Below are positions 7,078 to 54,284 of a DNA stretch of 64,000 bases, one piece after another (within the stretch, counting starts at the first letter, position 1; every line of letters starts with the position of its first letter). The notes beneath the pieces were generated by a model. That model had not been told where the DNA came from. It worked only from the letters and a program-made list of their open reading frames with translations, and ran no database searches. A program made the position numbers and the translations under genes. The DNA comes from an uncultured Verrucomicrobia subdivision 3 bacterium (GTDB lineage: Bacteria; Verrucomicrobiota; Verrucomicrobiia; Limisphaerales; UBA11358), in assembly GCA_903917705.1 (NCBI GenBank), contig CAIXBQ010000142.1, forward strand, positions 1 to 64,000. The letters are read 5' to 3'.

Positions 7078-7206
7078 TCACTTGACAAGCCAGCCCCTCG
7101 CATGAAAATTGTCGCGCCTCCGCCCAAGGGTTGTCCGGCAATCCACAAATCGGCGGGGCTCCGTATCGTTTCACATGACATCCGCCAGCCGGAACGCTTT
7201 TACAAC

Positions 7207-9393
7207 ATGATCACGCCAACGTCCAACGTCGCCGCCAACCCGCCAGCCATCATCCACCCCAAACTCCTCAGGCCAATCGCCCTCATCACCATGCTACTTG
7301 CCGCAGGCTGTTCCACCTCCGCGCCCAAGCTGGCGTATCCCGTCACCACCAAGACCGCCGTCGTGGATGATTACCACGGCACGCTTGTGCCCGACCCGTA
7401 TCGCTGGCTTGAAGACGACAATGCGCCCGCGACCAAGGCCTGGGTGGCCGCGCAAAACCAGGTCACCTTTGCCTATCTCAACACCATTCCCGCGCGCAAC
7501 CCCATCCGCGCCCGTCTCACCCATCTGTGGAACTACGAGCGCTACGGTGTGCCCTTCAAGGAAGGCGGCCGCTACTTTTATTCCCGCAACGACGGCCTGC
7601 AAAACCAGAGTGTCCTCTACACCGTCGATGCCTTGGACGGCACTCCCCGCGTCCTACTTGATCCCAACACCCTGTCCGCCGACGGCACCGTTGCTTTGGC
7701 CGGCATGAGCATCAGTCACGATGGCAATCTCCTCGCCTACGGCCTTTCCAGCGCCGGGTCGGATTGGGAAGAATGGAAAATCCGCGACATTCGCACCGGG
7801 CGCGATTTGGACGACCACTTGCAATGGGTCAAGTTCACCGCCCCCACGTGGACCAAGGACAACCGCGGCGTTTATTACAGCCGCTTCGCCGCGCCCAAGC
7901 CCGGCGACGCCCTCACCGGCCTCAATAAATTCAATCAGCTCTACTATCATCAACTTGGCACCGACCAGTCCGCGGACAAACTCATCTATGAACGGAAGGA
8001 CCAGCCCGATTGGGGCTTTGGCGGCACCGTCACCGAAGACGGCCGCTACCTTGTCATCAGCGCCAGCGAAGGGTCCGACCAGAAGAACCGCGTCCTTTAC
8101 CTCGACCTCGCCCAGCCCGCGGCGCCCGTGGTCGAATTGCTCATGGCCCACGACGCCGCCTACGATTTCCTTGGCAACGACGGACCCGTCTTCTGGTTCA
8201 AGACCGACCTCGACGCCTCACGCAGCCGTGTCATCGCCATTGATGTGACTCAACCCCAGCGGGACAACTGGCGCGAACTCATCCCGCAATCCGCCGAGAC
8301 CCTTGGCGGCGTCAGCGTGCTCAACCATCAATTTGTCGCCCACTACCTGCAGGACGCCCATTCCCTCGTGAAAGTCTTCGCCCTCGACGGACGCCTCATC
8401 CGCTCCGTCAACCTGCCCGGCCTGGGCGCCACCGCCGGCTTCGGCGGCAAGAGCACCGACACCGAGAGCTTTTACTCCTACACCAGCTTCACCACCCCCG
8501 GCACCATCTACCGTTACGACGCCGTCAGCGGCAACAGCACCGTCTTCCGCCAGCCCAAAGTGGATTTCGACGGCGATAAATACGAATCCAAGCAGGTCTT
8601 CTTCAAAAGCAAGGACGGCACCCGCATCCCCATGTTCCTCGTCCACAAACGCGGCCTTCAGCTCAACGGCCTCAACCCCACCCTGCTCTACGGCTACGGC
8701 GGATTCAACATCAGCCTCACCCCCGGCTTCAGCGTCAGCCGCGCCGCGTGGCTGGAACTGGGCGGCGTCTATGCGCAAGCCACCTTGCGCGGCGGCGGCG
8801 AATACGGCGAAGACTGGCATCACGCCGGCACCAAACATAACAAGCAAAATGTCTTCGACGACTTCATCGGCGCGGCAGAATGGCTCGTCGCCAACCATTA
8901 CACCAGCCCCGCCAAGCTCGCCATCCAGGGCGGCAGCAATGGCGGCCTGCTCATCGGCGCCTGTCTCACCCAGCGGCCCGACCTTTTCGGCGCCGCCCTG
9001 CCCGCCGTCGGCGTCATGGACATGCTGCGCTACCACAAATTCACCATCGGCTGGAGCTGGAGCGACGATTACGGCACCGCCGACAGCCCGGCCGACTTCC
9101 CCGTGCTTTACGCCTACTCCCCCTATCACAACCTCAAGCCCGGCGTCCACTATCCCGCCACCCTTGTCACCACCGGCGACCACGATGACCGCGTGGTCCC
9201 CGCGCACAGCTTCAAGTTCGCCGCCCGGCTGCAGGAATATCAGGCTGGTGCCAACCCCGTCCTCATCCGGATTGAAACCAAAGCCGGCCATGGCGCGGGC
9301 AAACCCACCTCCAAGTTGATTGAAGAGAAGACCGACGAACTCGGCTTCCTCGTCAAAGCCCTGCACATGGCCACACCCCCGGCGAAATCCTGA
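7207..9393 (+). CDS. Prolyl oligopeptidase family serine peptidase (S9A), lipoprotein
   Basis: A secreted lipoprotein peptidase that would cleave proline-containing oligopeptides in the periplasm. The frame is open from 7102, but the ATG at 7207 puts a lipobox (LAAGC, Cys35) after a hydrophobic segment, so it is chosen. The N-terminal S9A signature (DDYHGTLVPDPYRWLED) precedes a beta-propeller of about 400 residues. The C-terminal alpha/beta hydrolase has GGSNGG (nucleophile Ser about residue 577), the GDHDDRV loop carrying the Asp, and KAGHGAG with the catalytic His. Size (728 residues) is normal for the family. It lies 129 bp after cstA on the same strand, so a shared role in peptide use is conceivable. 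Confidence 0.92.
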   Translation: MITPTSNVAANPPAIIHPKLLRPIALITMLLAAGCSTSAPKLAYPVTTKTAVVDDYHGTLVPDPYRWLEDDNAPATKAWVAAQNQVTFAYLNTIPARNPIRARLTHLWNYERYGVPFKEGGRYFYSRNDGLQNQSVLYTVDALDGTPRVLLDPNTLSADGTVALAGMSISHDGNLLAYGLSSAGSDWEEWKIRDIRTGRDLDDHLQWVKFTAPTWTKDNRGVYYSRFAAPKPGDALTGLNKFNQLYYHQLGTDQSADKLIYERKDQPDWGFGGTVTEDGRYLVISASEGSDQKNRVLYLDLAQPAAPVVELLMAHDAAYDFLGNDGPVFWFKTDLDASRSRVIAIDVTQPQRDNWRELIPQSAETLGGVSVLNHQFVAHYLQDAHSLVKVFALDGRLIRSVNLPGLGATAGFGGKSTDTESFYSYTSFTTPGTIYRYDAVSGNSTVFRQPKVDFDGDKYESKQVFFKSKDGTRIPMFLVHKRGLQLNGLNPTLLYGYGGFNISLTPGFSVSRAAWLELGGVYAQATLRGGGEYGEDWHHAGTKHNKQNVFDDFIGAAEWLVANHYTSPAKLAIQGGSNGGLLIGACLTQRPDLFGAALPAVGVMDMLRYHKFTIGWSWSDDYGTADSPADFPVLYAYSPYHNLKPGVHYPATLVTTGDHDDRVVPAHSFKFAARLQEYQAGANPVLIRIETKAGHGAGKPTSKLIEEKTDELGFLVKALHMATPPAKS

Positions 9394-9460
9394 GAACTGT
9401 CAGGTCTTGGCAGACAGGCCCCACGAGCCGGCCTGAAATCACTGCAATCCAGACTTTCCG

Positions 9461-9538
9461 CTGTAGCGGCGGTCTATGACCGCCGAATATCCGTGTCGCA
9501 GCCCTGATTCCCCGGCGCTCATAGAGCGCCGCTACAGG
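9461..9538. repeat. REP/BIME-like palindromic unit
   Basis: The ends are inverted copies (CTGTAGCGGCG ... CGCCGCTACAG). Inside are two hairpins, GGCGGTC-TAT-GACCGCC and GGCGCTC-ATA-GAGCGCC. This architecture is that of bacterial interspersed mosaic/REP elements mobilised by RAYT transposases. One such transposase occurs at 53646-54098, but a match between it and this unit is not shown. Confidence 0.6.
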
Positions 9539-9566
9539 GCGTATGTTGAAATATCGACTTTAATGG

Positions 9567-9861
9567 TCAACACCTCAGCGTTGAAAAGTCACCACACAAG
9601 GTTGAATGATCACGACTCAGGGCTGAATGGTCGCAAAACAAGGTTGCAAGGTCACCGAACAAGGTCATTGAGTCAAAAATCAAGGTCGTTGAGTGAACAA
9701 ACGACCTGGATGAGTGACAAATCAAGGTGGATGAGCGACTCATCCAGGTGGATTAGCGACTCATCCAGGTGGATTAGCGACTCATCTGGGTGGATGAGCG
9801 ACTAATCCACCTTGATTTATGACCAAACAAGGTCGTTTTTTTACCGTTTGAGGCCGTTGGA
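9567..9861. repeat. 21-bp phased dyad array, locus 1
   Basis: Fourteen consecutive units, thirteen exactly 21 bp and the first 22 bp, follow each other without gaps. Early units read like TCA..ACAAGGTYRWTGAG and later ones CGACTCATCCAGGTGGATTAG. Units differ by many substitutions while spacing holds. Dyads recur: ATCCA-GG-TGGAT inside units and GGATGAG-CGA-CTCATCC across unit junctions. Because 21 is divisible by three, a heptapeptide-repeat frame is open over part of the array, but it hits a stop inside it. Similar arrays occur at 41941-42213 and 51838-52110 with other words. Confidence 0.85.
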
Positions 9862-10027
9862 CAGTTTTAACGCCTTGAAGACCGGCTCATAAACTCATTC
9901 AAACGAGCACTTTAGGCCGTTACGCCAAAAAAGTGTCCAGAAAGACACTTTCCCAAGCCAGCCCGGATGAGCCATTGAGCCTTGAAAGACGCCAGTCCGG
10001 TAGGGCGGGAGCAATTTATCCCCAATC

Positions 10028-10110
10028 TGGTGGGGCGAGCGTCCTCGCGAGCCGGTTTCCCCAAGGTGACCCGCCGTAAGGCGCGGCTCGCGAGTACGCT
10101 CGCCCCACCA
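10028..10110. repeat. Inverted-repeat unit, 83 bp
   Basis: Left arm GGTGGGGCGAGCG..CTCGCGAGCCG and right arm CGGCTCGCGAG..CGCTCGCCCCACC are near-perfect inverted copies of about 26 bp around a 30-bp centre. An 18-bp piece of the left arm (GAGCGTCCTCGCGAGCCG) recurs exactly at 28055-28072, so this is a dispersed family rather than a single hairpin. Confidence 0.6.
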
Positions 10111-10202
10111 CTCCTGCCGAATGGCCACCAGCGGGCAGTCCCCTGCCCGCCGTCGTCAGGCCAAACACCCGCGGCGCGCATGGAGTGCGCGCCCTACCTC
10201 GG

Positions 10203-10377
10203 GATTATGCCTTTGAAATGTCTTTCTCCCTCTCCTCCCTTAAAGGAGGAGAGGGTTGGGGTGAGGAGGCCAAGACAGATTCAAATTCAATGCCCCTCAC
10301 CCCAGACCTCTCCCCGTTTGGACGGGGAGAGGGAGTCCAAGCCGCCGCCCTTTGGCAAACTTGTCAAAGGCACAATC
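10203..10377 (+). repeat. 175-bp palindromic miniature element, copy A
   Basis: Begins GATTATGCCTTTG and ends CAAAGGCACAATC, giving 13-bp imperfect terminal inverted repeats. It contains two strong internal hairpins, CCTCTCCTCC.../GGAGGAGAGG and CCTCTCCCCGT/ACGGGGAGAGG, each joined to a GGGGTGAGG or CCTCACCCC arm. An almost identical copy of the same length lies in reverse orientation at 28771-28945. It has no coding capacity, so it is likely a non-autonomous element of REP/MITE type. Confidence 0.75.
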
Positions 10378-10542
10378 CCTCCCTGCCTCGCTTTAGGCTC
10401 GACTTTGCGAACGCCCGGAAATATGGTCGCCGCCATGAAGCCAATCGCTTTGAGGGAAGCCCTGACCATGGGTGCGTTTCACCCGGAGTGGCCGTCCGTC
10501 AGCACCCGGTTTGGCTCCATCAACCCCGTCAGATTTTTTACC

Positions 10543-11310
10543 ATGAAACACTGTTGCCGGCTCGTTTGCTTTTGGCTTTTGATGGTGGCGGCAAATTGCG
10601 GATTCAGTCAGGCGGCGCCGGAACATCTGCAGCTCTTCCTGCTCATCGGCCAGTCAAACATGGCCGGTCGCGGCACGGTGGAACCGCAGGATACGGTCAC
10701 GAATGCGCAGATTTTCATGCTCGCCAAGGACGGCCAATGGGTGCCGGCGAAGGACCCGTTGCATTTTGACAAGCCGGTGGCGGGCGTGGGGCTCGGCTCG
10801 GAGTTTGCGCGACAGATCGTGGCCGCCCATCCCAAGGCGGTCGTGGGCCTGATCCCCTGCGCCGTGGGCGGGACGAGCCTGGATCAATGGAAACCGGGCG
10901 GCAAGCTCTACCGGGATGCCGTGGCCCGAACCCGGACAGCCCTGAAGAATGGAACGCTCGCCGGCATCCTCTGGCATCAAGGCGAAGCGGACAGCGCCCA
11001 CGAAAAAGTCGCGACTTACCCGGACCGCTTCGCGTCGATGATTGGTCAACTCCGCAAAGACCTGAACGCGGAAGGGGTGCCGGTGATCGTGGGCGAGCTG
11101 GGACGATTCAGGGCTGCCAGCGCGGAGTTCAATGCCGCATTGCCCGGGATTGCCCGCCATGTGCCGCATTGCGCCTATGTGACCGCGGAAGGCCTGTCGG
11201 ATCGGGGCGATCATCTGCACTTTGACTCGGCTTCGCAGCGGATATTGGGACGGCGCTACGCCGAAGCCTTCTTGCAGGATGGCTTGAAGCGCGAGGCCGC
11301 GGCCCATTGA
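10543..11310 (+). CDS. Secreted sialate O-acetylesterase-like SGNH hydrolase
   Basis: A 255-residue exported esterase of the PF03629 type (carbohydrate esterase family 6-like), likely removing acetyl groups from sugars. The ATG at 10543 opens a signal peptide ending near FSQA. The frame continues upstream into repeats, so longer starts are rejected. The nucleophile motif GQSNMAGRG follows the first strand. WHQGEAD supplies the central motif, and DHLHFD near the C-terminus supplies the catalytic Asp/His. The next gene starts 15 bp after its stop, suggesting co-transcription. The exact substrate is unknown. Confidence 0.85.
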   Translation: MKHCCRLVCFWLLMVAANCGFSQAAPEHLQLFLLIGQSNMAGRGTVEPQDTVTNAQIFMLAKDGQWVPAKDPLHFDKPVAGVGLGSEFARQIVAAHPKAVVGLIPCAVGGTSLDQWKPGGKLYRDAVARTRTALKNGTLAGILWHQGEADSAHEKVATYPDRFASMIGQLRKDLNAEGVPVIVGELGRFRAASAEFNAALPGIARHVPHCAYVTAEGLSDRGDHLHFDSASQRILGRRYAEAFLQDGLKREAAAH

Positions 11311-29012: not shown

Positions 29013-32000
29013 TCAAGGATAGACGAGCCGATAGAACTTCGTCGGCAGGGTCGGATCAATCGTGACGTCCGTGGTGTTGACTGAGGCGCTGCCAGCCACC
29101 TCGGTCCAGTCGGCAGGGTTGGCGCTGACGCCAGTTGCGAGGTTGCTGGTCTGCTCAAGCAGCCGCCAGCCCGTGTGATCCGGCGGCCAGCTGATGGTCA
29201 GCGTGGTGCCGGAGACGGTGGTGGTGAGGTTGGTCGGAGTCAGATTGACGGTGGAATACACGCTCCAGACGCCGCTGGAGGCATTGGTCCATTGTTTGCC
29301 GGTGTCCAGTGAGGGCAGGTTGGTGGCCGCAAAGGTGCCGCTGATGCCGGCGCCCGCGCTGAACAGGGTGAAGGTGTCGCCGGCCTGCAGGGGATCGCCG
29401 AGGTTGACGATGGTGAGGGTGCCGCCGAGGAGCATGGTGTTGGAGCAGACGAGCGAATCGCAGTGCGGGCTGGCAGTGCGGTTGAGCTTCAGGTAGGCGG
29501 TGCCGCCGAGGGTGACGGCGTTGGTGACGCTGAGCTTGGCGGTGGCGGCGGAGGTGCCGGGGGTGACGGTGCCGTTGACGATGAGGCTGCCGTTGATGAG
29601 GCCATGGCCATTCAGGGTGAGGTTGCTGCCCACGGTCAGGGTGCCGCCGTCGAGGGTCATGACGGTGTTGGTGTTGACCAGGCCGGCGGTGCCGGGGTCG
29701 GGGGTGACGGTGCCGTGGGCGGTGAGGCTGCCCATGAGGGTGCCCTGCCCTTGCAAGGTCTGGCTGTTGCCGAGGGTCAACATGTGATCGCTGCGCAGGG
29801 AGACATCCAGCACGGCGTTGGAGTTGATGGTGATGGGCGTGGTGTTGTTGAACGAGCCGTCGGGGCCGCCGGAGCTGAGGGCGAGCACGCCGGCGGTGAT
29901 GGTGGTGGTGCCGTTGTAGGTGTTCACGCCGCTGAAAGTCTGGCGGCCGGTGCCGACCTTGACGATGTTCACCTTGGCGCCGCTGCCGCCGGCGCCGGTG
30001 GCGATGATGCCGGAGAAGTCGGCGTCGGTGTTGTTGCCGCCGATGGTGTAGGTGGTGGCGGCGGAGCCGGAATTGGCGCTGCCTTTCATGTAGGTGCTGC
30101 CCCCGCCGGCGAGGGCGCCGAGGCTGTAGGTGCCGCCGTCGCGGTTGATGAGCTGGGTGGAGCCGTAGCCGAGGTTGAAAGTGGCGTTGGAGGCGTTCAG
30201 GGTGGTGCCGCTGGTCGGGGTGAAGCGGAGGAAGGGCAGCGTGTTGCCCATGAACGTGCCGGTGAAGGCGCTGCTGTCAATGGCCGCCAGCGTGAGGGTC
30301 TGGGCCCCGGAACCGTTGAGGTTGACGGTGCCGCTGCCGGTGATCTTGTTGATGGTGTCGTTGCCGGCGGTGGTGATGTAATTGTTGACGTCCACGACAT
30401 TGAGCACATCGCTCAGGGTCTGGGAATCGCCGCCGAAGAGGAAGGTGGCGGTGCTGGTGGTGCCGTTCAGGGTCAGCACATTCGTGCCGAGCCCCGAGGC
30501 CGGGTTGGCCCGGATGGTGCCGGCCTTGATGAGGGTGCCGCCGGCGTAATTGTTCCCGCCGTTCAGGGTGACCTGGCCGTCGCCGGTCTTGATGAGCGTG
30601 CCGGGCCCGGTCAACTGGCCGGACAGGGTGAGCGTGGTGCCCGAGGAGACGACGCTCAAGCCGCCGTTGCCGGCCCCGAGGGTCATGGCCCGGTCAATGC
30701 TCTTGGTCACGCCGAGATATTCGAGCGCGCCGCCGTCGAGAATCAGGTTCGAGGCCGAGGCCGAGGCCGCGCCGATGGGACTGGCGGAGCCGCCGCTGGC
30801 GAGGGTGGAGACGCTGATGGCACCGCCGTTGATGGTGGTGACGCCGGTGTAGGCCTGGTTGTTCTCGATGGTGAGCTTGCCGGTGTTGGTCTTGGTCAGG
30901 CCGGTGCTGCCGCTGAGGTCGCCGCTGCCGGCGAAGTCGTAGTCGTTGACGGCATTCACGGTGATCACGCCCGCGGCCGCCGGCGTCAGGATGCCGGAGA
31001 GATTGGCGGTGAAGCTGGTGGCGGTGTCGTCAAAGGTGACGGTGTCGCCGGTGTAGAAGCGGTCGGAGCTGGCGCCATTGAGCCAGTTGCTGGCGCCGCC
31101 GGTGTCCCAGAGATTCGCCACGCCGTCGCCGCGCCAGACGAGGCTGGCCACGGCCCGGACCGTGGTCACGACGAGGTCGATCTCGCCAGGGGTGTTGGTG
31201 GAGATATCGCCGGCCACGCAGGACAGGTTGGTGATGGCGCCGTAGAAGCTGCCGGTGTAGGTGATGAGCTTGTAAGTGCCGATGGCCAGGGAGCCCACAG
31301 GCACCACCACGACGTTGTTCGAGCCGTCGATGTTCAGATCGCCGGCGATGTGGATGGCGTCGTTGGGAACGCTGACGCCGGTGGGATCATTGCCGAGCTC
31401 CAGCTTGAAGGTGGTGTTGGTCGCCGCGAGGCCATTGGCGAAGTTCAACGCGCCCTGCGCGCCGGTGCCGGCGGGGCTGATGGTGGAATTGTCCACGGCG
31501 GCAAAGGTGCCGACGACCGTGCCGACGCCGGCCACGGTCTTGCCGGAGCCGAGCGTGAACCCGCCGACGCCGGCGAGCCCGGTCACGTCAAAGGTGGCGT
31601 TGGTGGCGACGGTGATGGTGCTGGTCGGCAGGGCGCCGAAATAAGTGACGCCGTCGTTGGTGAGGGTGAGCGTGCCGGCGTTGATGGCGGTGGCGCCGGG
31701 GTAGGTGTTGGCGCCGCCGAGGATCAGGTTGCCGTTGCCGGTCTTGGTCAGGGAGCCGCCGGACAGGATGCCGGAGAGCGTGATGGTGTGAGGCGCATTG
31801 GCGGCGTCGGCCGCCTTGATGGTGGCGGCGCCCAGCGTCATGTTCATGGTGGAGGACCAGTCAGCGCCCGCGCCGAGGGTGCCGCCGGTCAGATTGACGG
31901 TGGAGACAAAGCCGGCGCCCGTGGAGACCTGAGCCATGCCGCCGCTGCCGACATAGAGCGAACTGCCGGTCAGGCTCAATACGGCGTTCATGTTCGTGGA

Positions 32001-35000
32001 ACCGGCGGTCGCCTGGCCGAAGCTGATTTTGCCGGCGTTGGCCGTGCCGTTGCGCAAGAGGAGCACCGCGTTGCCGGCCAGGGGTCCGCCGATGTCGATG
32101 CCGGTGGTGGTGTCGTTGACCGTGACGGTGCCGCCATTCACGTCGAGATCCGACCAGCGGCCGCTGTTGTTCAGGCCGATGGTCAGCACCCCGCCGACCG
32201 TCAGGCTGCCGCTGTCGATGCGGGCGTTGACGCTGGAATTCGCCAGCGCGCTGGTGCTCAGGCTCAGATTGTTGGTGACCATCACCACGCCGCCGGCATG
32301 GATGTAAAGGTTATGGATGGTGTCACCGGACGTGGGCTGGGTGGTGTTGCTCAAGCCCGTGCGGCCGAAAGCCATGCTGCCGGCGGTCAGCGTGCCGCCG
32401 GCCACATTGATCACGGAATTGTTGTTGACCCCGAAATCCATGTTCAAGGCGCCGGAATAATTCACCGTGCCGGAGGTAATGAACAGGCCGGTGGAAGGCA
32501 CGCCGACATTGCCGGAGGTGGCCGTCACGAGGCCGCCGTCCACGAGTAATTCCGCGCCGCCAACCGCCGAGACACTGGCGACCGCACCGCTGATGGCGCC
32601 GTTGTTGGTGACTTCCAGGATGCCGGCGGCCACGGTGGTGCTGCCGGAATAAGTGTTGGCGGCAAGCAAGGTCACCGTGCCCGAACCGTTCTTGTTCAAC
32701 CCGCCCGCGCCGGTGATGGCGCCGCTGACCACGGTGTTGGTGATGCCGTCGAAGGAGAGCAGATTGCCGCCGTTGGTGATGGCCTGGCTGAGGGCCAGAA
32801 TGCCCGCCGCCGCATTGATGGTCTGCGCGGCCGTCAAGGTGATCGGCAGGTTCAGGGTCTGCAGGTTCGCGGAATTATTGGTGATGCCGCTCCCCGACAA
32901 CGTCAGGCTGTTGCCGGGCGTGCCCACGGTGAAGCTGGCGGCGCCGCCGGCAAACGCCAGGCCGCTCATATTATTGTCGGCATCCATGGAGGGAGTCGGC
33001 CGCGTGGACCCGGCAAAAATCAGATAATCGCCGGTGACCGGGGAAACGGTGCTCACCCAGTTCAAGCCGCTGCTCCAGTTGTCATCCGCAGCGAGGCCGT
33101 CCCAGGTCTGCGTGTTCACCACGGTCAAGTTGATCGTTATCACGGCGGAAAGCGGCGTCGGACTGGTGGTATCATAAATGGTCGCGGACAGCCCCTTGAT
33201 GCCCGGGGCGGTGCCGGCGCTGACGGTGACGGTGTTGGTGTAGACACTGGTTGAATTGGACTGCACGAGCGTCACGGAGGAGGAACCGCCGATCAAACTT
33301 GCATCCAGCACGACACTGCCAACCGGGTTGCTGCCGGCCACGGTGACAACTGTGATGCGGGTGCTTTGGTTGCGGTTCACGGGATTCGGACTGGCGTAGC
33401 CGGCACCGGACGGCGGGGCGGACGCCGAGTAACTCAACACCACCTTGTTGCCGCTGAGCGTCACGATGTAATTGGCGGCGTTGGCCGGGGCCACATCCCA
33501 GACCGGCGTGGTGTTGGGCGTGCCGGCAATGGCGGCGGCGGTCGCGAGCACATAATCGGCGTTCGTATCCAGATTGACGGTCGAGTTGGGCGCTTTGAGA
33601 TGGAACACGGTGCTGTTAAGCGCCAGGGTGCCGCCCACAGAGATCAGGTCGTTGCTGCCGTTGTAGACCGTGCCGAGATCCAGGGTGATCAGCGCGCCGG
33701 AGACGTTCGTCAGGTTGTTGTTGAAGGTGTTGGTGCCAAAGGTGCCGTCTTTGCCGGCATAAATGATGGAGCCCGAAGTGGTGTTCACCGAACCGTTGAC
33801 CGTGCCGCTGCCCGCGAGGCTCTGGCTGGCGCCCAGGGTGTAGCCGGAAACGGCGGAGACATCAAAGGTCGCGCCGGCGGCCGTGGTGATCTGGGGAGTG
33901 CTGCCGATGGTGCCGGTCGAGGCGAGCGCGAGGGTCCCGTTGTTCACAAAGGTGCTGCCGGAGAAAGTATCGGTCCCGCTCAAATTCACGATGCCGTCGC
34001 CGGTCAAGGCGGTCGTGTTCGCGGTGCCGGCGCCCGTGCCGGGAAGCGTTCCCAAGCCGACGGTCAGCGCGCCGGAGCCGCTGATCACGCCATCCACGGT
34101 CAGGGTATTCGCGGTGATCGCAGCGAGGCCGCCGCCGTTGTTGCCGAGCACGATCGGACGTTTGTTCGCCCCGGCATTGTCGAGAACCATGGTGCCATTC
34201 GCCACCACGGTGCCGCCGTTGAGGTTGAGGTTGGCGGCGGTTCCCTGCGCGCCGAAAGCCCCGTTGGTGGCGCCGGTGCCGATCAAGGAATAACCGCCAT
34301 CCAGATAGGTCTGGCCGGTGTAGGTGTTGGGGTTGTTGTAAGCGACCGTGCCAAGACCAGCCTGAACGAATGCGCTGCCAGCCTTGTTGCCATCATCGCC
34401 CAGAGTGACATTGATGCTGAAGAATCCCAGCGTGTTGTTCTGCCAGAAGACCGTCGAGCCGGCATTGACGCCGCTGCGCCCGCCCGGGCCGTATGAAAAC
34501 GAACCGCTGCCGGTGAAACTCGTGTTGTTGGCCCCCACGTTCGGGGTGATGAGAAAACCTTGGGCACTGAACACCGTGCGGATGTTGAAGGTGATCGCCG
34601 CCGGAGTATTGAAACGAACCATGCCATAGCTGCTGGTGCTGGTGGAGGTTGACAGGCTCGCAACAATATCAAAGCAGCCTAACGCGGTGGTGGTCCCGAT
34701 ATTGCTGCTGGCAACCGTATAAACACCGTCCCCGGCGGTTCCGCCGGTGCCTTGAGAACCACCGATTATCGAAAAGGGAGAGGTGCCGGAAAAGATGGCC
34801 ACGTCATACAGTCCAACGGTCGCAAAGGCGGCTTGAGCCGCACTGCCGGTCGCTCCGATTCCCGTAGCCCCGCCCTGCACCGTGGCGTTGGCGGCACCCG
34901 CCGTGGTGGAAACAGTGGCGGTGGAGGCGACCAACCCGGTGGTGTCGGCATTTCCATTGGCCCCGGTTTGTCCGGTGGCGCTCGAAATCCCCGTGGAAGT

Positions 35001-35777
35001 GGCGGGACCAACAAATTTGACGGCTGCGCCGGCGGTGTAAGTCAGCCCGGCGAGCGCCGCCGATGCCGATCCGCTGCCGGAAATGGTGGATAACCCGGAG
35101 GCGAACGTGGTGCCGGCGAACAAATTGGAACTGGTTGCCACGGTGCCGTTGCCCACCAGATTCAAGGTGCCGCCGCCAAGCGAGAGCGCTGTTTTGTTGA
35201 TGATGTTCGGGCCAGGTGAACCGGTGACATAGTCGAGGGTCAGCGTGCCGGCATTGATGGCCGAGGCGCCGGTGTAGGTCTGCGGGCTGGAGCCGCTAAA
35301 AGTGATCGTGCCGCCGCCCGTCTTGGTGATGCCGCCGGCGCCGGAGATGACGCCGTTGATGGCCATCGTGCCGCCCGCAGCGGCATTGATCGTGTGCGTC
35401 GAGGTGAACACCATGTTGAGATTCACCGTCTCCAGGTTCGGCGAACTGTCCGCGATGGCGGCAGTGTTGGTGATCTGATTGCCAGTCAACGTGAAAGCTC
35501 CCGCCGTGGGACTGAACAGGATCCCGGCATAGTTGTTGATGGCGGTCTGATTGTTATTGGCGGTCAGGCGCGTGCTGCCGTCGAATACCAGCGCGTCGCC
35601 GCCAATGGGCGGCTTGTTGGCGCTGCCGGCGGTCCAGTTGCCGATCGTATTCCAGTTGTTGTCGGCGCCGGCGCCGTTCCAGGTGTCGGTGCCAGCCTGC
35701 AGCGAATACGCGCCCGCCAGCAGGAACAGGCCGGCGCACAGGAGGAGTTGATTGATGATGGATTGTTTGGTTTTCAT
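29013..35777 (-). CDS. Giant secreted protein with autotransporter-associated beta-strand repeats
   Basis: 2,254 residues. The signal peptide ends near YSLQA (about residue 28). Three modules each open with a W-x-G...NW block (about residues 32, 889 and 1546: TWNGAGADNNW, TWDGLAADDNW, VWRGDGVANLW). They continue as many glycine/threonine-rich PATR repeats (GAGGLTKTGxGTxxLxGxNTYxGxTxxxxGxLxL) forming a long parallel beta-helix. The last 70 residues (TISWPPDHTGWRLLEQTSNL ... FYRLVYP) form a C-terminal domain seen in such Verrucomicrobial proteins, possibly a sorting or anchoring module. There is no outer-membrane beta-barrel, so it is not a classical autotransporter. It is monocistronic. An adhesive or surface-layer role is inferred. 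Confidence 0.88.
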   Translation of the reverse strand: MKTKQSIINQLLLCAGLFLLAGAYSLQAGTDTWNGAGADNNWNTIGNWTAGSANKPPIGGDALVFDGSTRLTANNNQTAINNYAGILFSPTAGAFTLTGNQITNTAAIADSSPNLETVNLNMVFTSTHTINAAAGGTMAINGVISGAGGITKTGGGTITFSGSSPQTYTGASAINAGTLTLDYVTGSPGPNIINKTALSLGGGTLNLVGNGTVATSSNLFAGTTFASGLSTISGSGSASAALAGLTYTAGAAVKFVGPATSTGISSATGQTGANGNADTTGLVASTATVSTTAGAANATVQGGATGIGATGSAAQAAFATVGLYDVAIFSGTSPFSIIGGSQGTGGTAGDGVYTVASSNIGTTTALGCFDIVASLSTSTSTSSYGMVRFNTPAAITFNIRTVFSAQGFLITPNVGANNTSFTGSGSFSYGPGGRSGVNAGSTVFWQNNTLGFFSINVTLGDDGNKAGSAFVQAGLGTVAYNNPNTYTGQTYLDGGYSLIGTGATNGAFGAQGTAANLNLNGGTVVANGTMVLDNAGANKRPIVLGNNGGGLAAITANTLTVDGVISGSGALTVGLGTLPGTGAGTANTTALTGDGIVNLSGTDTFSGSTFVNNGTLALASTGTIGSTPQITTAAGATFDVSAVSGYTLGASQSLAGSGTVNGSVNTTSGSIIYAGKDGTFGTNTFNNNLTNVSGALITLDLGTVYNGSNDLISVGGTLALNSTVFHLKAPNSTVNLDTNADYVLATAAAIAGTPNTTPVWDVAPANAANYIVTLSGNKVVLSYSASAPPSGAGYASPNPVNRNQSTRITVVTVAGSNPVGSVVLDASLIGGSSSVTLVQSNSTSVYTNTVTVSAGTAPGIKGLSATIYDTTSPTPLSAVITINLTVVNTQTWDGLAADDNWSSGLNWVSTVSPVTGDYLIFAGSTRPTPSMDADNNMSGLAFAGGAASFTVGTPGNSLTLSGSGITNNSANLQTLNLPITLTAAQTINAAAGILALSQAITNGGNLLSFDGITNTVVSGAITGAGGLNKNGSGTVTLLAANTYSGSTTVAAGILEVTNNGAISGAVASVSAVGGAELLVDGGLVTATSGNVGVPSTGLFITSGTVNYSGALNMDFGVNNNSVINVAGGTLTAGSMAFGRTGLSNTTQPTSGDTIHNLYIHAGGVVMVTNNLSLSTSALANSSVNARIDSGSLTVGGVLTIGLNNSGRWSDLDVNGGTVTVNDTTTGIDIGGPLAGNAVLLLRNGTANAGKISFGQATAGSTNMNAVLSLTGSSLYVGSGGMAQVSTGAGFVSTVNLTGGTLGAGADWSSTMNMTLGAATIKAADAANAPHTITLSGILSGGSLTKTGNGNLILGGANTYPGATAINAGTLTLTNDGVTYFGALPTSTITVATNATFDVTGLAGVGGFTLGSGKTVAGVGTVVGTFAAVDNSTISPAGTGAQGALNFANGLAATNTTFKLELGNDPTGVSVPNDAIHIAGDLNIDGSNNVVVVPVGSLAIGTYKLITYTGSFYGAITNLSCVAGDISTNTPGEIDLVVTTVRAVASLVWRGDGVANLWDTGGASNWLNGASSDRFYTGDTVTFDDTATSFTANLSGILTPAAAGVITVNAVNDYDFAGSGDLSGSTGLTKTNTGKLTIENNQAYTGVTTINGGAISVSTLASGGSASPIGAASASASNLILDGGALEYLGVTKSIDRAMTLGAGNGGLSVVSSGTTLTLSGQLTGPGTLIKTGDGQVTLNGGNNYAGGTLIKAGTIRANPASGLGTNVLTLNGTTSTATFLFGGDSQTLSDVLNVVDVNNYITTAGNDTINKITGSGTVNLNGSGAQTLTLAAIDSSAFTGTFMGNTLPFLRFTPTSGTTLNASNATFNLGYGSTQLINRDGGTYSLGALAGGGSTYMKGSANSGSAATTYTIGGNNTDADFSGIIATGAGGSGAKVNIVKVGTGRQTFSGVNTYNGTTTITAGVLALSSGGPDGSFNNTTPITINSNAVLDVSLRSDHMLTLGNSQTLQGQGTLMGSLTAHGTVTPDPGTAGLVNTNTVMTLDGGTLTVGSNLTLNGHGLINGSLIVNGTVTPGTSAATAKLSVTNAVTLGGTAYLKLNRTASPHCDSLVCSNTMLLGGTLTIVNLGDPLQAGDTFTLFSAGAGISGTFAATNLPSLDTGKQWTNASSGVWSVYSTVNLTPTNLTTTVSGTTLTISWPPDHTGWRLLEQTSNLATGVSANPADWTEVAGSASVNTTDVTIDPTLPTKFYRLVYP

Positions 35778-36018
35778 GACGGTTGATTAACGTTGGGAGG
35801 ATTGACGGACGCTTGAGTGATTAACGGGTTGAGCACTGAATATTTCGAGCCACGACGGTGCGACAAAGCTTCCACGCAGGTTTCGAGACGATGGGCATTT
35901 GATGCAATATATCGCCGGCCTTAATATTGACCATCGCCAGTTCTGGTGACAGGCGAGGCAGAAGCGTCGTCCGGCAAGGTCGTGCCGGAGATTTCCGCGG
36001 GAAGAAAATATATGAGGG
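35778..36018. other. Intergenic region upstream of the giant gene
   Basis: 241 bp with no open frame worth calling and no clear ribosome-binding site before the ATG at 35777. Contains the promoter of the giant gene by position, but no convincing -35/-10 pair is seen. Confidence 0.4.
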
Positions 36019-41675: not shown

Positions 41676-42386
41676 GGTCGCCTTGTTGGTTCGTTCATAT
41701 CAAAAAGCGGCCTGGATGTCAATAGCATATTTAATCCACACATACATTGTGGCGTCATATATCTAATGAGTCTGGCTAAACTTAATCATGCGCAGGTTTT
41801 ATGTATGGACGGACACATTGATTTGAGTGGTAGGTATGATGGCCGTTTTTTTCAACCCGTGCCGGTGAAAGTCCGGAGTCAGATCGAAAATATTTTACCC
41901 GCCATGGGCGGAATCGATGACCTAAAAAGCGGAAAAAACAATATCAGATTCTAAAACCAAGACGCCTTCCTCGGCTGGAACAACGTCATAAAATGAAAAG
42001 ACAACGTCTTCCCCTTCCCGCATGACGTTATAAAACGAAAAGACAACGTCTTCCATGGCTGGCACGACGTTATAAAATGGAAATACAACTTCTTCTCCGG
42101 TTTGAACAACGTCATTAAATGAAAAGACAACGTCTTCCCCATCCGGCAAGACGTATTAAAATTGAAAAATGACGTCAGATTTTGAAAAGAAGACGTCTTG
42201 TTTTCAAAATCCGACATGGCACGGTGGTTGGAGGTGGTCGTTTTACCGTTAAAACCACACATTTTGACCAAAGATGGGCAAAAGCTCGAAAAACAGCGAA
42301 AAAGACGAACCAATGAAGTTTGGGTGATAATTCCTGAAAGGACATTTATCACGTTGGCCGTGAAGTAAAGATGAAGGCGGTTCGGC
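41676..42386. other. Intergenic region holding the second phased array
   Basis: 711 bp between two minus-strand genes. Its centre is the 21-bp array (41941-42213). A 62-codon plus-strand open frame at 41766 overlaps the array edge and shows no family feature. The DNA is clearly AT-richer than the surroundings. Confidence 0.55.
41941..42213. repeat. 21-bp phased dyad array, locus 2
   Basis: Thirteen consecutive 21-bp units, most starting ACGTC or ACGTT. Two kinds roughly alternate in the middle (ACGTYATAAAATGAAAAGACA and ACGTCTTCC-rich), giving a 42-bp super-period. The word AAGAC-AAC-GTCTT forms a dyad at unit junctions. Length is strictly kept while sequence drifts. A heptad-like frame on the minus strand is open, but only as a by-product of the period. 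Confidence 0.85.
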
Positions 42387-51595: not shown

Positions 51596-52223
51596 GGGGG
51601 AAAGTTAAAACGCACGGCGAATAAGGAAAGCAGGAAAACCGGAAACTTTTTCGGGCACCAGGAATCCGGTCCATCGCCGGAGCTGCTTCACTGCCGAACC
51701 GGACAAACCCGGCGATCAGGCTTTGAGTCAAACTGTCGCACCGGTCGGTTGACTGTATCCACCGGGTGATCGGAATGTTTTGCCAGTCAATCGCCTCTCT
51801 GAACTGACCAGAAGAGGGCAAAAGTTGGTCTGCACGGACAAAAAGCTGGGTTGCAAAGAACTTTTGCAAGTCTGCAAACAAGTTTTGCAAGCCTGCAAGA
51901 AACATTTGCAAGGCCGCAAATATGTTTTGCAGGTCTGCAAGAAACCTTTGCAAGCCTGCAAATGAGTTTTGCAAGGCTGCAAGAAACTTTTGCTGGGCAG
52001 AATAAAACTTTTCCTTGGCAGTATAAAAGATTTCCCGGGCAGAATAAAAGATTTTCTGGGCAGAATAAAACATTTGCTGGGCAGCTTTTTTAACAATCCA
52101 GCCTGAAAAAGTCAGCCTTCAGCCGGTTCCCCTTCCGTTAAGGGCCTGCAAGTGAGCAGATTAAATTGAAAATGCTATAAGTGTCCCGTTTTGAGCTCTG
52201 GACGGATGGTCTTTGCCACCGGC
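51596..52223. other. Intergenic region holding the third phased array
   Basis: 628 bp between the HIT gene start and the lpxB stop. The centre is the 21-bp array. The flanks hold no gene. Several open frames in both strands cross the array, in more than one frame at once, as expected for a period divisible by three. Confidence 0.6.
51838..52110. repeat. 21-bp phased dyad array, locus 3
   Basis: Thirteen consecutive 21-bp units. The left half repeats AACTTTTGCAAGTCTGCAAAC-like words with the dyad TTTGCA-N4-TGCAAA. The right half changes to AAGATTTTCTGGGCAGAATAA with the dyad TTCTG-GG-CAGAA. The switch happens without breaking the 21-bp step. It is located 113 bp beyond the lpxB stop. Confidence 0.85.
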
Positions 52224-53363
52224 CTAACCGAGCAGGCTGGCCACCGCCGTAGCCGCCCGCCCCGCCGCGCCAGGTTCGCCGAGCGAAGCGATGATTTTTG
52301 CGAGCTGCGCCTTGATTTTGGCGCGCTGGACGTCGTCCTGCAATAGCGCCAAGGTGGCACGCGACAGATTCTCCGGCGTTGCCTCGTTTTGTATGAACTC
52401 CGGGTAAACCGTCTCTCCGGCCAGCAGATTCGGCATCGTGAGCGATTTCACCGTCACGAGGCGTTTGGCGATCTGATAGGTGAGCCACGAAGTTTTGTAG
52501 AGCGTCACGGTCGGCACACCGAAGAACGCGCACTCCATCGTCACGGTGCCGGTCGAGGCCAGCGCGACGTCCGCCCCGGCCAGCGCCCACGGCAGCTCGC
52601 CAATCTGGATGTCCACGTTCGCGCCAAGGGATTTCGCCAGCGACACCAGCGCCGGGTTTGGCAGGACCATCTTGGCCTTCGCGTCCGGCAGCTTTTCCTG
52701 AATCAGCTTCAGCGCATCCAGCATCACCGGCAAATGGCGCTGCAGCTCGCCCTTGCGGCTGCCCGGCAGCAGGAGCACCGTCGGCACAGAGCTTTTTTTC
52801 TGCATTCTTAATTCTTCCTTCTGCATTCGCTCCACCATCGGGTGCCCGACAAACTCCACGCGGAACTGCGGCACGCGTTTCGCATACCAATCCTGCTCGA
52901 ACGGGAAAATGCTTAACAGCAAATCATAATCGCGCGCCAGCTTGTCCGCGCGGCCCGGCCGCGAGGCCCAGACCTGCGGCGAAACGAACTGGACAATCCG
53001 CGGATTCCACTTGGAAAACGGATTGTCGCGGACATAGCGCTTGACCGCCTGGCCGAAACGCAGATTGAACCCGCCGTAATCCACCCCGATGATCACGTCC
53101 GGCTGGCGCGCGATGGCCTGCGCGAGCAGCTGGTGGAACAAACGGCGGAACACAAAATATTTTTTCAGCACATCCGTGATGCCGATGACCGAATGCTGCG
53201 TCAGGTCGAAGGCCAGCTCCACGCCGGCGGCGGACATCTTGGCGCCGCCCGCGCCGAAAAACTTCGCGTCCGGCAGCCGGCCGCGCAGTGCGGCCACCAG
53301 TTCCGCCGCGAGCAGATCTCCGCTCGCCTCGCCGGCGATGAGCATGAAGGTTTTCGGTTTCAC
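52224..53363 (-). CDS. lpxB: Lipid-A-disaccharide synthase
   Basis: 379 residues. It joins UDP-2,3-diacylglucosamine and lipid X in lipid A synthesis at the inner-membrane face. AGEASGDLLAAELV is the diagnostic N-terminus. VSPQVWASRPGR, LLPGSRKGELQRHLPVML and STGTVTMECAFFGVPTVTLYKTSWLT are family blocks of the GT-B glycosyltransferase 19. The start is GTG at 53363, and its first 32 bp recur at 54312-54343 on the far side of an inserted transposase. The intact frame suggests it is functional, though its original promoter or operon link is now interrupted. Confidence 0.95.
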   Translation of the reverse strand: MKPKTFMLIAGEASGDLLAAELVAALRGRLPDAKFFGAGGAKMSAAGVELAFDLTQHSVIGITDVLKKYFVFRRLFHQLLAQAIARQPDVIIGVDYGGFNLRFGQAVKRYVRDNPFSKWNPRIVQFVSPQVWASRPGRADKLARDYDLLLSIFPFEQDWYAKRVPQFRVEFVGHPMVERMQKEELRMQKKSSVPTVLLLPGSRKGELQRHLPVMLDALKLIQEKLPDAKAKMVLPNPALVSLAKSLGANVDIQIGELPWALAGADVALASTGTVTMECAFFGVPTVTLYKTSWLTYQIAKRLVTVKSLTMPNLLAGETVYPEFIQNEATPENLSRATLALLQDDVQRAKIKAQLAKIIASLGEPGAAGRAATAVASLLG

Positions 53364-53425: not shown

Positions 53426-53451
53426 GGGTTAGCCACGGAGTGGCGAAAGAT

Positions 53452-54284
53452 AGTAGCCCACAGCGCCAGCTGTGGGAAAGCGTTCAACCAGATTTTAAGC
53501 CCCGGCCGGGGCGAAAGAAAACCTTTAGCCTCAAATCGAATCTCGTTCGCCCCGGCCGGGGCTAGGAAAAATTGTGAATGCCCCAACCCACAGTTGACCC
53601 TTCGGGCTCGTTCCGGGCGCCGCCCCGCCGTTATGCTTCGTTTCATCACTCCCACAAAAACCTTTCGTCGTATTCAATCTCATGCCGCTTGAGGAACGCC
53701 AGGAATTCCTCCTGAAACGAAACCCTGCGATGATGCTCCTCCTGGCTGGCGATGTATTTTTCAACTTCAACCAGGCTTGAATGGCTCACGCTGAACGCGC
53801 CATAACCGATTTGCCACGAGAACATGGTTTGATTTGGAAAATTCTGGTGAACCCAACCGGATGAGTCCGCCTTCAACTCGCGCATCAAATCAGATAACGA
53901 ATGCTTGGCGGCGAGCGATGCGAGAATGTGGATATGATCCGCCGGGCCATTGATGATAAGCGCCTTGCCGTCGTGCGCGCGGATGACGCCGCCGAGATAT
54001 GGGAAGAGGCGCGCTTTCAAATCAGCGTCGAGCCATGGTCGCCGGTCTTTCGTGCTGAAGATGATGTGCGTCAGCAAGTGGGTAAAGGTATGCGCCATAA
54101 GAAAAAGCGGCCGAGCAGCGAAAGCAAGCAGCTCACGGCGTCAGCCGTGGGAACGGTATCGACAAAATCATCCAAGCCCCGGACGGAGCGGACGAAACAG
54201 GTGGTTGAACCGTGTGTTTCTGGCGCCCCTGCCGGGGCTTTTGAAATTTGTGGACCTGACCCATAGCTGGCGCTATGGGCTACT
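53452..54284. mobile_element. IS200/RAYT-like element with 25-bp inverted ends
   Basis: 833 bp. The outer ends are 25-bp inverted repeats with a hairpin (CCCACAGC-GCCA-GCTGTGGG on the left, CCCATAGC-TGGC-GCTATGGG on the right) and AGTAG at the outer edge. Just inside are further GC-rich hairpins (GCCCCGGCCGGGGC at about 53499-53512; GCCCCTGCCGGGGC at about 54225-54238). The single gene is a Y1 transposase. Hairpins in mirror orientation around such a gene are the arrangement of REP-associated tyrosine transposases. Confidence 0.75.
53646..54098 (-). CDS. IS200/REP-associated Y1 HUH transposase
   Basis: 150 residues. It is a single-strand DNA transposase of the HUH type. The metal-binding HUH motif is PADHIHIL (His55, His57) and the nucleophile Tyr is in VEKYIASQEEHHRR (Tyr115). 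The N-terminus THLLTHIIFSTKDRRPWL is family-typical. The enzyme nicks and joins at hairpins such as those flanking it. It is intact, so potentially active on the REP-like repeats seen elsewhere in the window. It has the same orientation as lpxB. Confidence 0.88.
   Translation of the reverse strand: MAHTFTHLLTHIIFSTKDRRPWLDADLKARLFPYLGGVIRAHDGKALIINGPADHIHILASLAAKHSLSDLMRELKADSSGWVHQNFPNQTMFSWQIGYGAFSVSHSSLVEVEKYIASQEEHHRRVSFQEEFLAFLKRHEIEYDERFLWE

Follow-up and report, generated by a model that had tools for sequence, protein, structure and literature searches.

What kind of element keeps a step of exactly 21 bp while the sequence of its units is free to change? The question is raised by an intergenic array at locus 1 of the window, as we call the whole 64,000-nucleotide stretch analysed here, which is contig C142 of a 3.76-Mb metagenome-assembled genome (MAG) that is 66% complete and whose sucC places it in Verrucomicrobia subdivision 3 / Limisphaerales. 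The array and its neighbouring genes are the following:

9559..9873, no strand: array 1, the subject of this study, with 13 exact 21-bp units plus partial flanking units, dyad-symmetric
7102..9393, + strand: prolyl oligopeptidase (Peptidase_S9) gene, with 177 bp between its 3' end and array 1
10423..11310, + strand: gene for a SASA-family carbohydrate esterase, 563 bp downstream of array 1

Anatomy of the array at locus 1

Thirteen consecutive 21-bp units occupy positions 9580-9852 with zero indels, flanked by partially matching rows at 9559 and 9853. This agrees with the number and step of the units given in the initial annotation, except for an additional 22-bp unit, which was not found: the sole phase change lies at ~9860, where the array ends. 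The self-identity of positions 9567-9861 is 0.679 at lag 21 and drops to background at lags 20 (0.222) and 22 (0.256). None of 2,000 dinucleotide shuffles reached 0.679 at any lag from 5 to 84, the shuffled identity having a mean of 0.253 (sd 0.027) and a maximum of 0.39. Identity between units falls from 0.70 for adjacent ones to ~0.5 at a distance of 5-8 units, and this decay shows that the sequence drift is real.

The two dyads pointed out previously, ATCCA-GG-TGGAT and GGATGAG-CGA-CTCATCC, are both present, and the dyad symmetry of the array (0.533) exceeds that of a column-permutation control (0.383 ± 0.032; p = 0.002), the same p-value (0.002) being obtained with a statistic based on the reverse complement of the whole array. 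Conservation is mirrored around the dyad axis (p = 0.012) and is uneven among columns (p = 0.0065, relative to a star-tree null, which arrays of tree-like descent can exceed). Since a dyad combined with a 21-bp translation forces a second dyad axis half a step away, the two axes of each unit are not independent.

Stop codons interrupt all six frames inside the array, one frame being open from 9476 to 9805, and synonymous and non-synonymous differences are about equally frequent; the earlier view that the array is not a gene therefore holds, and heptad coding is unsupported at this locus. The array folds better than its column-permuted controls on both strands (z = -3.0 and -5.3; 40 permutations). 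In its own genome, similarity at E<0.001 is restricted to contig C133 and to the array itself. Relatives have other neighbour genes around locus 1, so the orthologous gap is not comparable. The surroundings of the array contain dispersed inverted repeats of the REP/MITE-like type (window positions 9460-9540, 10020-10115, and 10160-10380), and a 181-bp stretch at ~10200-10380 recurs at 97% beside the array in L237.

A class of intergenic arrays

The array at locus 1 is not alone: other arrays in which a 21-bp unit, usually a dyad, recurs in register between genes have been found, so far in one genus. Two more of them are located in the window:

41941..42214, no strand: array 2 (also delimited as 41937-42176), with an alternating 42-bp period (2 x 21) and an AAGAC-AAC-GTCTT dyad at the unit joints
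51831..52103, no strand: array 3 (also delimited as 51820-52084), with 21-bp units passing from the TGCAA...TTGCA type to the AGAATAAAA type, in the lpxB-HIT intergenic gap

No similarity between arrays 1 and 2 could be detected. In ~1.0 Mb of the same genome, there are 16 intergenic arrays, with a step of 21 bp or a multiple of it in 13, of 20 bp in one, and of 41 bp in two. At a score of at least 40 and lags of 11-100, this sample gives 17 noncoding rows (13 of the 21-bp family, one of 20 bp, two of 41 bp, and one of 99 bp). The 99-bp row L240 resembles ankyrin repeats and is probably a gene, as is, probably, the 84-bp row L024 inside a long open reading frame. Among the genus sample, four of the five noncoding rows are of the 21-bp family, the fifth being a noncoding repeat of 93-bp period in the same-genus genome G034 (L226:9871-10042). 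Same-genus loci contain 12 distinct arrays at a score of at least 35, or 13, in ten other genomes, with the weaker L175. Their sources are 38 stretches (four arrays), 29 lpxB loci (four), 30 Y1-transposase loci (five, two of which are the lpxB ones), and 29 TPR loci (one); seven prolyl-oligopeptidase and three sucC same-genus loci yielded no array at a score of at least 35.

The resulting list has 29 arrays, with a step of 21 bp or a multiple in 26, 20 bp in one, and 41 bp in two; L308 is the complete form of L250, and the coding L172, the probably coding L024 and L240, and the noncoding 93-bp L226 were dropped from the class. All-against-all blastn searches (E<=1e-3) retrieved six similar pairs, of which four are weak and two strong, namely locus 1 with C133 (86%) and C122 with C15 (91%), the latter being part of a paralogous segment that extends past the array. 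No motif common to all 29 arrays was found in these searches. Array densities are only rough because the sampled stretches are not random: some contigs of this genome were chosen for their BLAST hits to locus 1 (C133 strongly), L165 for its match to locus 1, and other stretches for holding prolyl oligopeptidase. Gene calls come from a purpose-built codon model, and the array windows used in the tests were set by eye.

Other repeats were observed along the way. At L029:3599-4023, a 41-bp array of ~ten units whose neighbours are 91% identical looks much younger than the drifting arrays. Short 10-bp arrays of the CCGGTTTGGT type, with one helical turn per unit, occur at three sites of the genome (L236:13574, L238:18027, and L163:530). 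Within the window, a 6.8-kb frame that is open from stop to stop and has internal periods of 12, 15, and 18 bp (29013-35786, - strand) perhaps encodes a repetitive protein.

Dyad symmetry

The dyad test compares self-complementarity around the best axis with that obtained after permuting the columns of the same array, thus keeping composition and repetition. Dyads are significant (p<0.05) in 18 of 21 arrays of step 21, with a mean score over the 21 arrays of 0.513 versus 0.403, a value reached by 0 of 500 control sets. Two of four arrays found later also have significant dyads, giving a total of 20 out of 25 tested 21-step arrays; the remaining five are L161, L165, L221, L210, and L339. The earlier of our two statistics, the identity of the whole array with its reverse complement, is the less favourable one, reaching significance in 11 of the 19 rows tested from arrays of step 21 and in 5 of 6 further rows. 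With it, the three arrays of step 20 or 41 showed no significant dyads.

Conservation is mirrored around the dyad axis overall (Fisher p = 7e-5) and singly in 4 of 21 arrays, including locus 1. It is also uneven among columns in 16 of 22 rows (p<0.05, again relative to the star-tree null and its weakness with tree-like arrays). The arms of one dyad rarely match each other better than they match the arms of different dyads, and the symmetry is thus a property of the consensus, not of clearly compensatory pairs. Indeed, within-dyad covariation is weak, being clear in w3 and L233 only.

Retention of step and phase

The steps of the class (20, 20.5, and 21 bp) are all near two helical turns, as the initial annotation had remarked of locus 1, and its statement that the step stays fixed while the sequence drifts extends to the other arrays: only six phase shifts were counted in 22 arrays of step 21, representing ~270 units and 2,109 adjacent mismatches. 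One of them falls at the edge of array 1, L237 has two that cancel out, and L304 has two with the same sign. Spontaneous indels in bacteria are about a tenth as frequent as base substitutions. Arrays simulated with indel:substitution ratios of 0.02, 0.05, and 0.1 accumulated 1.05, 2.35, and 4.0 shifts per detected array, and 40, 34, and 15 of 40 arrays were detected, respectively. Detection bias does not explain the scarcity of phase shifts at modest indel rates, but indel-rich arrays could be missed, given the low detection at a ratio of 0.1. The paralogous arrays of C122 and C15 can be aligned without gaps across the array part, where a mismatch cluster could hide two compensating indels. 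Identity decays with unit distance in some arrays of the class, and block periods of 42, 63, and 83 bp exist.

Several other readings were considered and rejected. DNA shaping was suggested initially, but base composition supports neither bent or wrapped DNA nor, more generally, curved-DNA or nucleosome-like phasing, since no 10.5-bp AT harmonic (the second harmonic of the step) was present (0 of 21 arrays at p<0.05); the once-per-21-bp AT harmonic reaches p<0.05 in 3 of 21 arrays. Mutagenic copying of the DGR type is not indicated because there is no consistent mutation type (ts/tv of 0.71 overall and from 0.37 to 2.17 by array), nor are these CRISPR arrays, their units being contiguous and drifting, without spacers.

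Genomic position and turnover

Considering the 12 arrays of this genome with both neighbours known, eight are located in tandem gaps, four in convergent gaps, and none in a divergent one; six of the eight in tandem gaps are closer to the 3' end of the upstream gene. In relatives, one of four such arrays (L221) is in a divergent gap. Because just 16% of the placeable intergenic DNA is divergent, the bias toward 3' ends is only suggestive.

Array 3 is next to a gene that could be used as a synteny anchor:

52224..53363, - strand: lpxB gene, beside array 3
53431..53476, - strand: Acido-Lenti-1 RNA (RF01687) that reaches the gathering score, located between the lpxB and Y1 genes
53646..54098, - strand: Y1_Tnp (PF01797) gene of 150 aa, upstream of lpxB

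The lpxB gene was detected in 48 of 49 genomes, which allowed the comparison with relatives suggested in the initial annotation to be made for a single gene gap across species of the genus. There, the array is not shared: the lpxB-HIT gap contains array 3 in the window and no array in the 23 relatives in which HIT was found (out of 29 lpxB loci), and four relatives have different arrays on the opposite side of lpxB. Therefore, arrays arise or vanish within the genus.

A Y1_Tnp match within ~2.5 kb of lpxB, as judged by coordinates, is also present in G001, G014, G017, G018, G047, G049, and G057; as these seven same-genus genomes share the position, this gene may be vertically kept, i.e., domesticated. 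HUH Y1 transposases bind hairpins, and 44 of the 49 genomes have Y1_Tnp genes (with matches over the cut-off in 43). The genome of the window has three, one 108 bp from an array (C15) and another ~1.6 kb from an array. Nevertheless, the link with Y1 transposases is weak after normalising, as Y1 loci hold 5 arrays per 31 kb of noncoding DNA versus 4 per 25 kb at lpxB loci (two arrays being in both sets), with no clear enrichment per noncoding bp. A common flanking element was rejected, dispersed REP-like repeats alone being shared.

Searches outside the genus

No drifting intergenic 21-bp array was found in ~1.7 Mb of mostly more distant loci. Order-level relatives (0.41 Mb) only have noncoding arrays of period 43 and 16, plus one 10-bp TRF array, and 22 further order-level loci (93 kb) contain no array at a score of at least 28. 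One order-level relative harbours a near-identical noncoding 43-bp array (L268:93-443). The outside set consists of 80 sucC loci (1.32 Mb) from Verrucomicrobia, Alphaproteobacteria, and others, including at least one same-genus locus (L066, contig C70 of G008, a same-genus genome that includes contig CAIJGS010000070.1 of a Verrucomicrobia subdivision 3 bacterium), and no drifting noncoding 21-bp array was detected in these 80 loci. Their 21-bp rows at a score of 40 lie in long open frames or consist of 7-bp units (L070, L077, L101, and L115). Besides, a Nitrobacter locus (L132) contains a noncoding repeat with a 63-bp period and some two copies, an Opitutus locus has a 22-bp array within a long open frame and without significant dyads, and gap-tolerant TRF searches on the sucC loci mostly retrieve a period of 14.

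Comparison with known systems

REP/BIME clusters consist of intergenic palindromes, which in BIMEs have regular spacing and alternating orientation, and are proposed to act in supercoiling and chromosome organisation as well as in termination and the stability of mRNA (PMC2817692, PMC3733652). Titles cited by PMC12306157 mention a location at 3' ends and the cleavage of BIME-2 by gyrase. REPs form sequence families, many of them tagged GTAG or CGTC (PMC3733652). The arrays described here similarly are intergenic palindromic units clustered at regular spacing, but their units are mostly unrelated between arrays, their step is 21 bp, and there is no genome-wide sequence family.

Other systems share some of these properties. 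Bacterial minisatellites (VNTR) are tandem units formed by local duplication, whose presence or absence differs between genomes. The presence of our arrays also differs between relatives, at the species level, in the lpxB-HIT gap; in contrast to minisatellites, their period is confined to 20-21 (41-42) bp, they are mostly dyads of mostly unrelated sequence, and phase shifts are rare. In helix-phased protein arrays, such as plasmid iterons, ParR/parC, omega-repressor heptads, and MetJ boxes, the repeats are bound on one face and keep a recognisable motif for one protein. Here too the repeats are tied to the helical turn and are often dyads, but no motif is shared by the 29 arrays and no cognate regulator gene occurs among 20 neighbour proteins, unlike in iteron- or centromere-type systems. 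Finally, DNA polymerase can elongate palindromic tandem DNA through hairpins in vitro, a process for which no paper was found in the open-access full-text literature. In this way, tandem units that are self-complementary would be lengthened in register whatever their sequence; however, hairpin elongation, which is known only as an in vitro process, gives no cause for a 21-bp step in one genus.

We found no description of arrays like these in an open-access full-text library. They are best placed among the intergenic palindromic repeats, although there is a real chance that they are a kind of their own.

Origin and possible role of the arrays

The step near two helical turns and the rarity of phase shifts are properties of the class as a whole. 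Multi-site protein binding, put forward in the initial annotation, may still apply, but no single sequence-specific protein can account for arrays whose units differ so much in sequence, and whatever uses them must read shape; a step shared by mostly unrelated dyads suggests that shape or helical phase is what is read. Our preferred reading, to which we give a probability of roughly 0.45, is that the arrays are DNA-level elements whose geometry is kept by selection and which work like BIME clusters near gene ends. The units would increase in number through tandem duplication in register, with point mutations causing the drift, as suggested by the decay of identity and by block periods of 42, 63, and 83 bp, and purifying selection would act on the geometry of the DNA, as suggested by the retained step. 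Candidate shape features are dyads in phase, which could fold into hairpins or cruciforms; alternatively, the dyads may be bound by a protein that wraps DNA or acts as a dimer and has relaxed sequence requirements. From the anatomy of the arrays we infer their function, and the likeliest role would be a topological or architectural platform near gene ends akin to BIME/REP clusters, for instance a supercoil sink or a loading site for gyrase or a nucleoid protein.

A mutational generator is a close rival, which we consider somewhat less likely. A replication or repair process in this genus (hairpin-primed slippage, copying of small dumbbells, or a hairpin-binding HUH transposase) would start from palindromes already present at a site and, with a ruler of two turns, extend them into dyad arrays that stay in register and have little or no function. 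The use of one step at unrelated sites with mostly unrelated sequence speaks for such a process, and array gain or loss at the lpxB-HIT gap, the decay of identity with distance, and the block periods are consistent with it, as are the frequent periods of 10-11 bp in short noncoding TRF arrays (7 of 27 in this genome and 4 of 17 in the genus) and the wide distribution of Y1_Tnp genes, including the one beside the C15 array. However, the diverged arrays L016 and L175 (near-unit identity of ~0.5) hold phase over ~14 units where neutral decay should break it, column conservation is uneven and partly dyad-symmetric, and the density of arrays at Y1 loci is close to that at lpxB loci. It is unlikely that the arrays are transcribed elements, i.e., tandem hairpins of 3'-UTRs acting as terminators, RNase barriers, or small-RNA arrays. 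In 12 of 19 arrays, but not in the coding control L172, one strand or both fold better than their column-permuted versions (z <= -2; 40 permutations); this and the position of many arrays near gene ends would fit with RNA hairpins. However, in the 15 of 20 arrays whose strand was assigned from their neighbours, mismatched dyad positions on the presumed sense strand are G.U in 248 cases and A.C in 301. As there is no G.U excess on that strand, RNA structure is not indicated. Furthermore, pairing gives no cause for a ruler of 20-21 bp, and no Rfam family matches the three arrays of the window at gathering score, the Acido-Lenti-1 RNA being the sole match in the window and outside the arrays; sub-threshold matches around array 1 are far below the cut-off of each family.

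Explanations by specific proteins fare worse. That each array is a multi-operator for its own sequence-specific dimeric protein, in the manner of iterons, ParR/parC, or MetJ, seems quite improbable to us: the dyad units are operator-sized and at two-turn spacing, and some arrays have conserved cores with variable spacers (e.g., L284, in which identity is flat over distance), yet ~16 arrays per Mb with mostly unrelated motifs would need dozens of cognate regulators, and none of 20 scanned neighbour proteins resembles a DNA-binding regulator (two have no family and three are Y1 transposases). Still harder to credit is a heptad-repeat coding sequence, in spite of 21 bp being seven codons, of array 3 being stop-free in four of six frames, and of pS exceeding pN in single frames, most in L233 (0.62 vs 0.27, with one stop) and L165 (0.33 vs 0.13, with three stops). 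In addition to the stops and the similar pS and pN of locus 1, none of 18 arrays and none of nine further rows approach the true heptad gene L172 (0.8 vs 0.18), and neither of the other steps, 20 and 41, is divisible by 3.

Returning to DNA-level elements under selection, it is possible, although we would put this broader proposal only tentatively, that the arrays are chromosomal elements defined by geometry alone, with two-turn dyads of free sequence, guarded against indels, reborn at new intergenic sites, and with a birth mechanism of their own. If this is true, they would represent a shape-coded DNA element born by a two-turn molecular ruler in one genus of Verrucomicrobia. If selection holds the step, bacteria would have dispersed elements that are read by shape and helical phase and are invisible to motif-based annotation. 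If the cause is instead mutational, there would be a tandem-duplication engine with a ruler of two helical turns, equally unexplained. Both readings make clear predictions, in terms of indel depletion and ruler length, that are testable in one genus.
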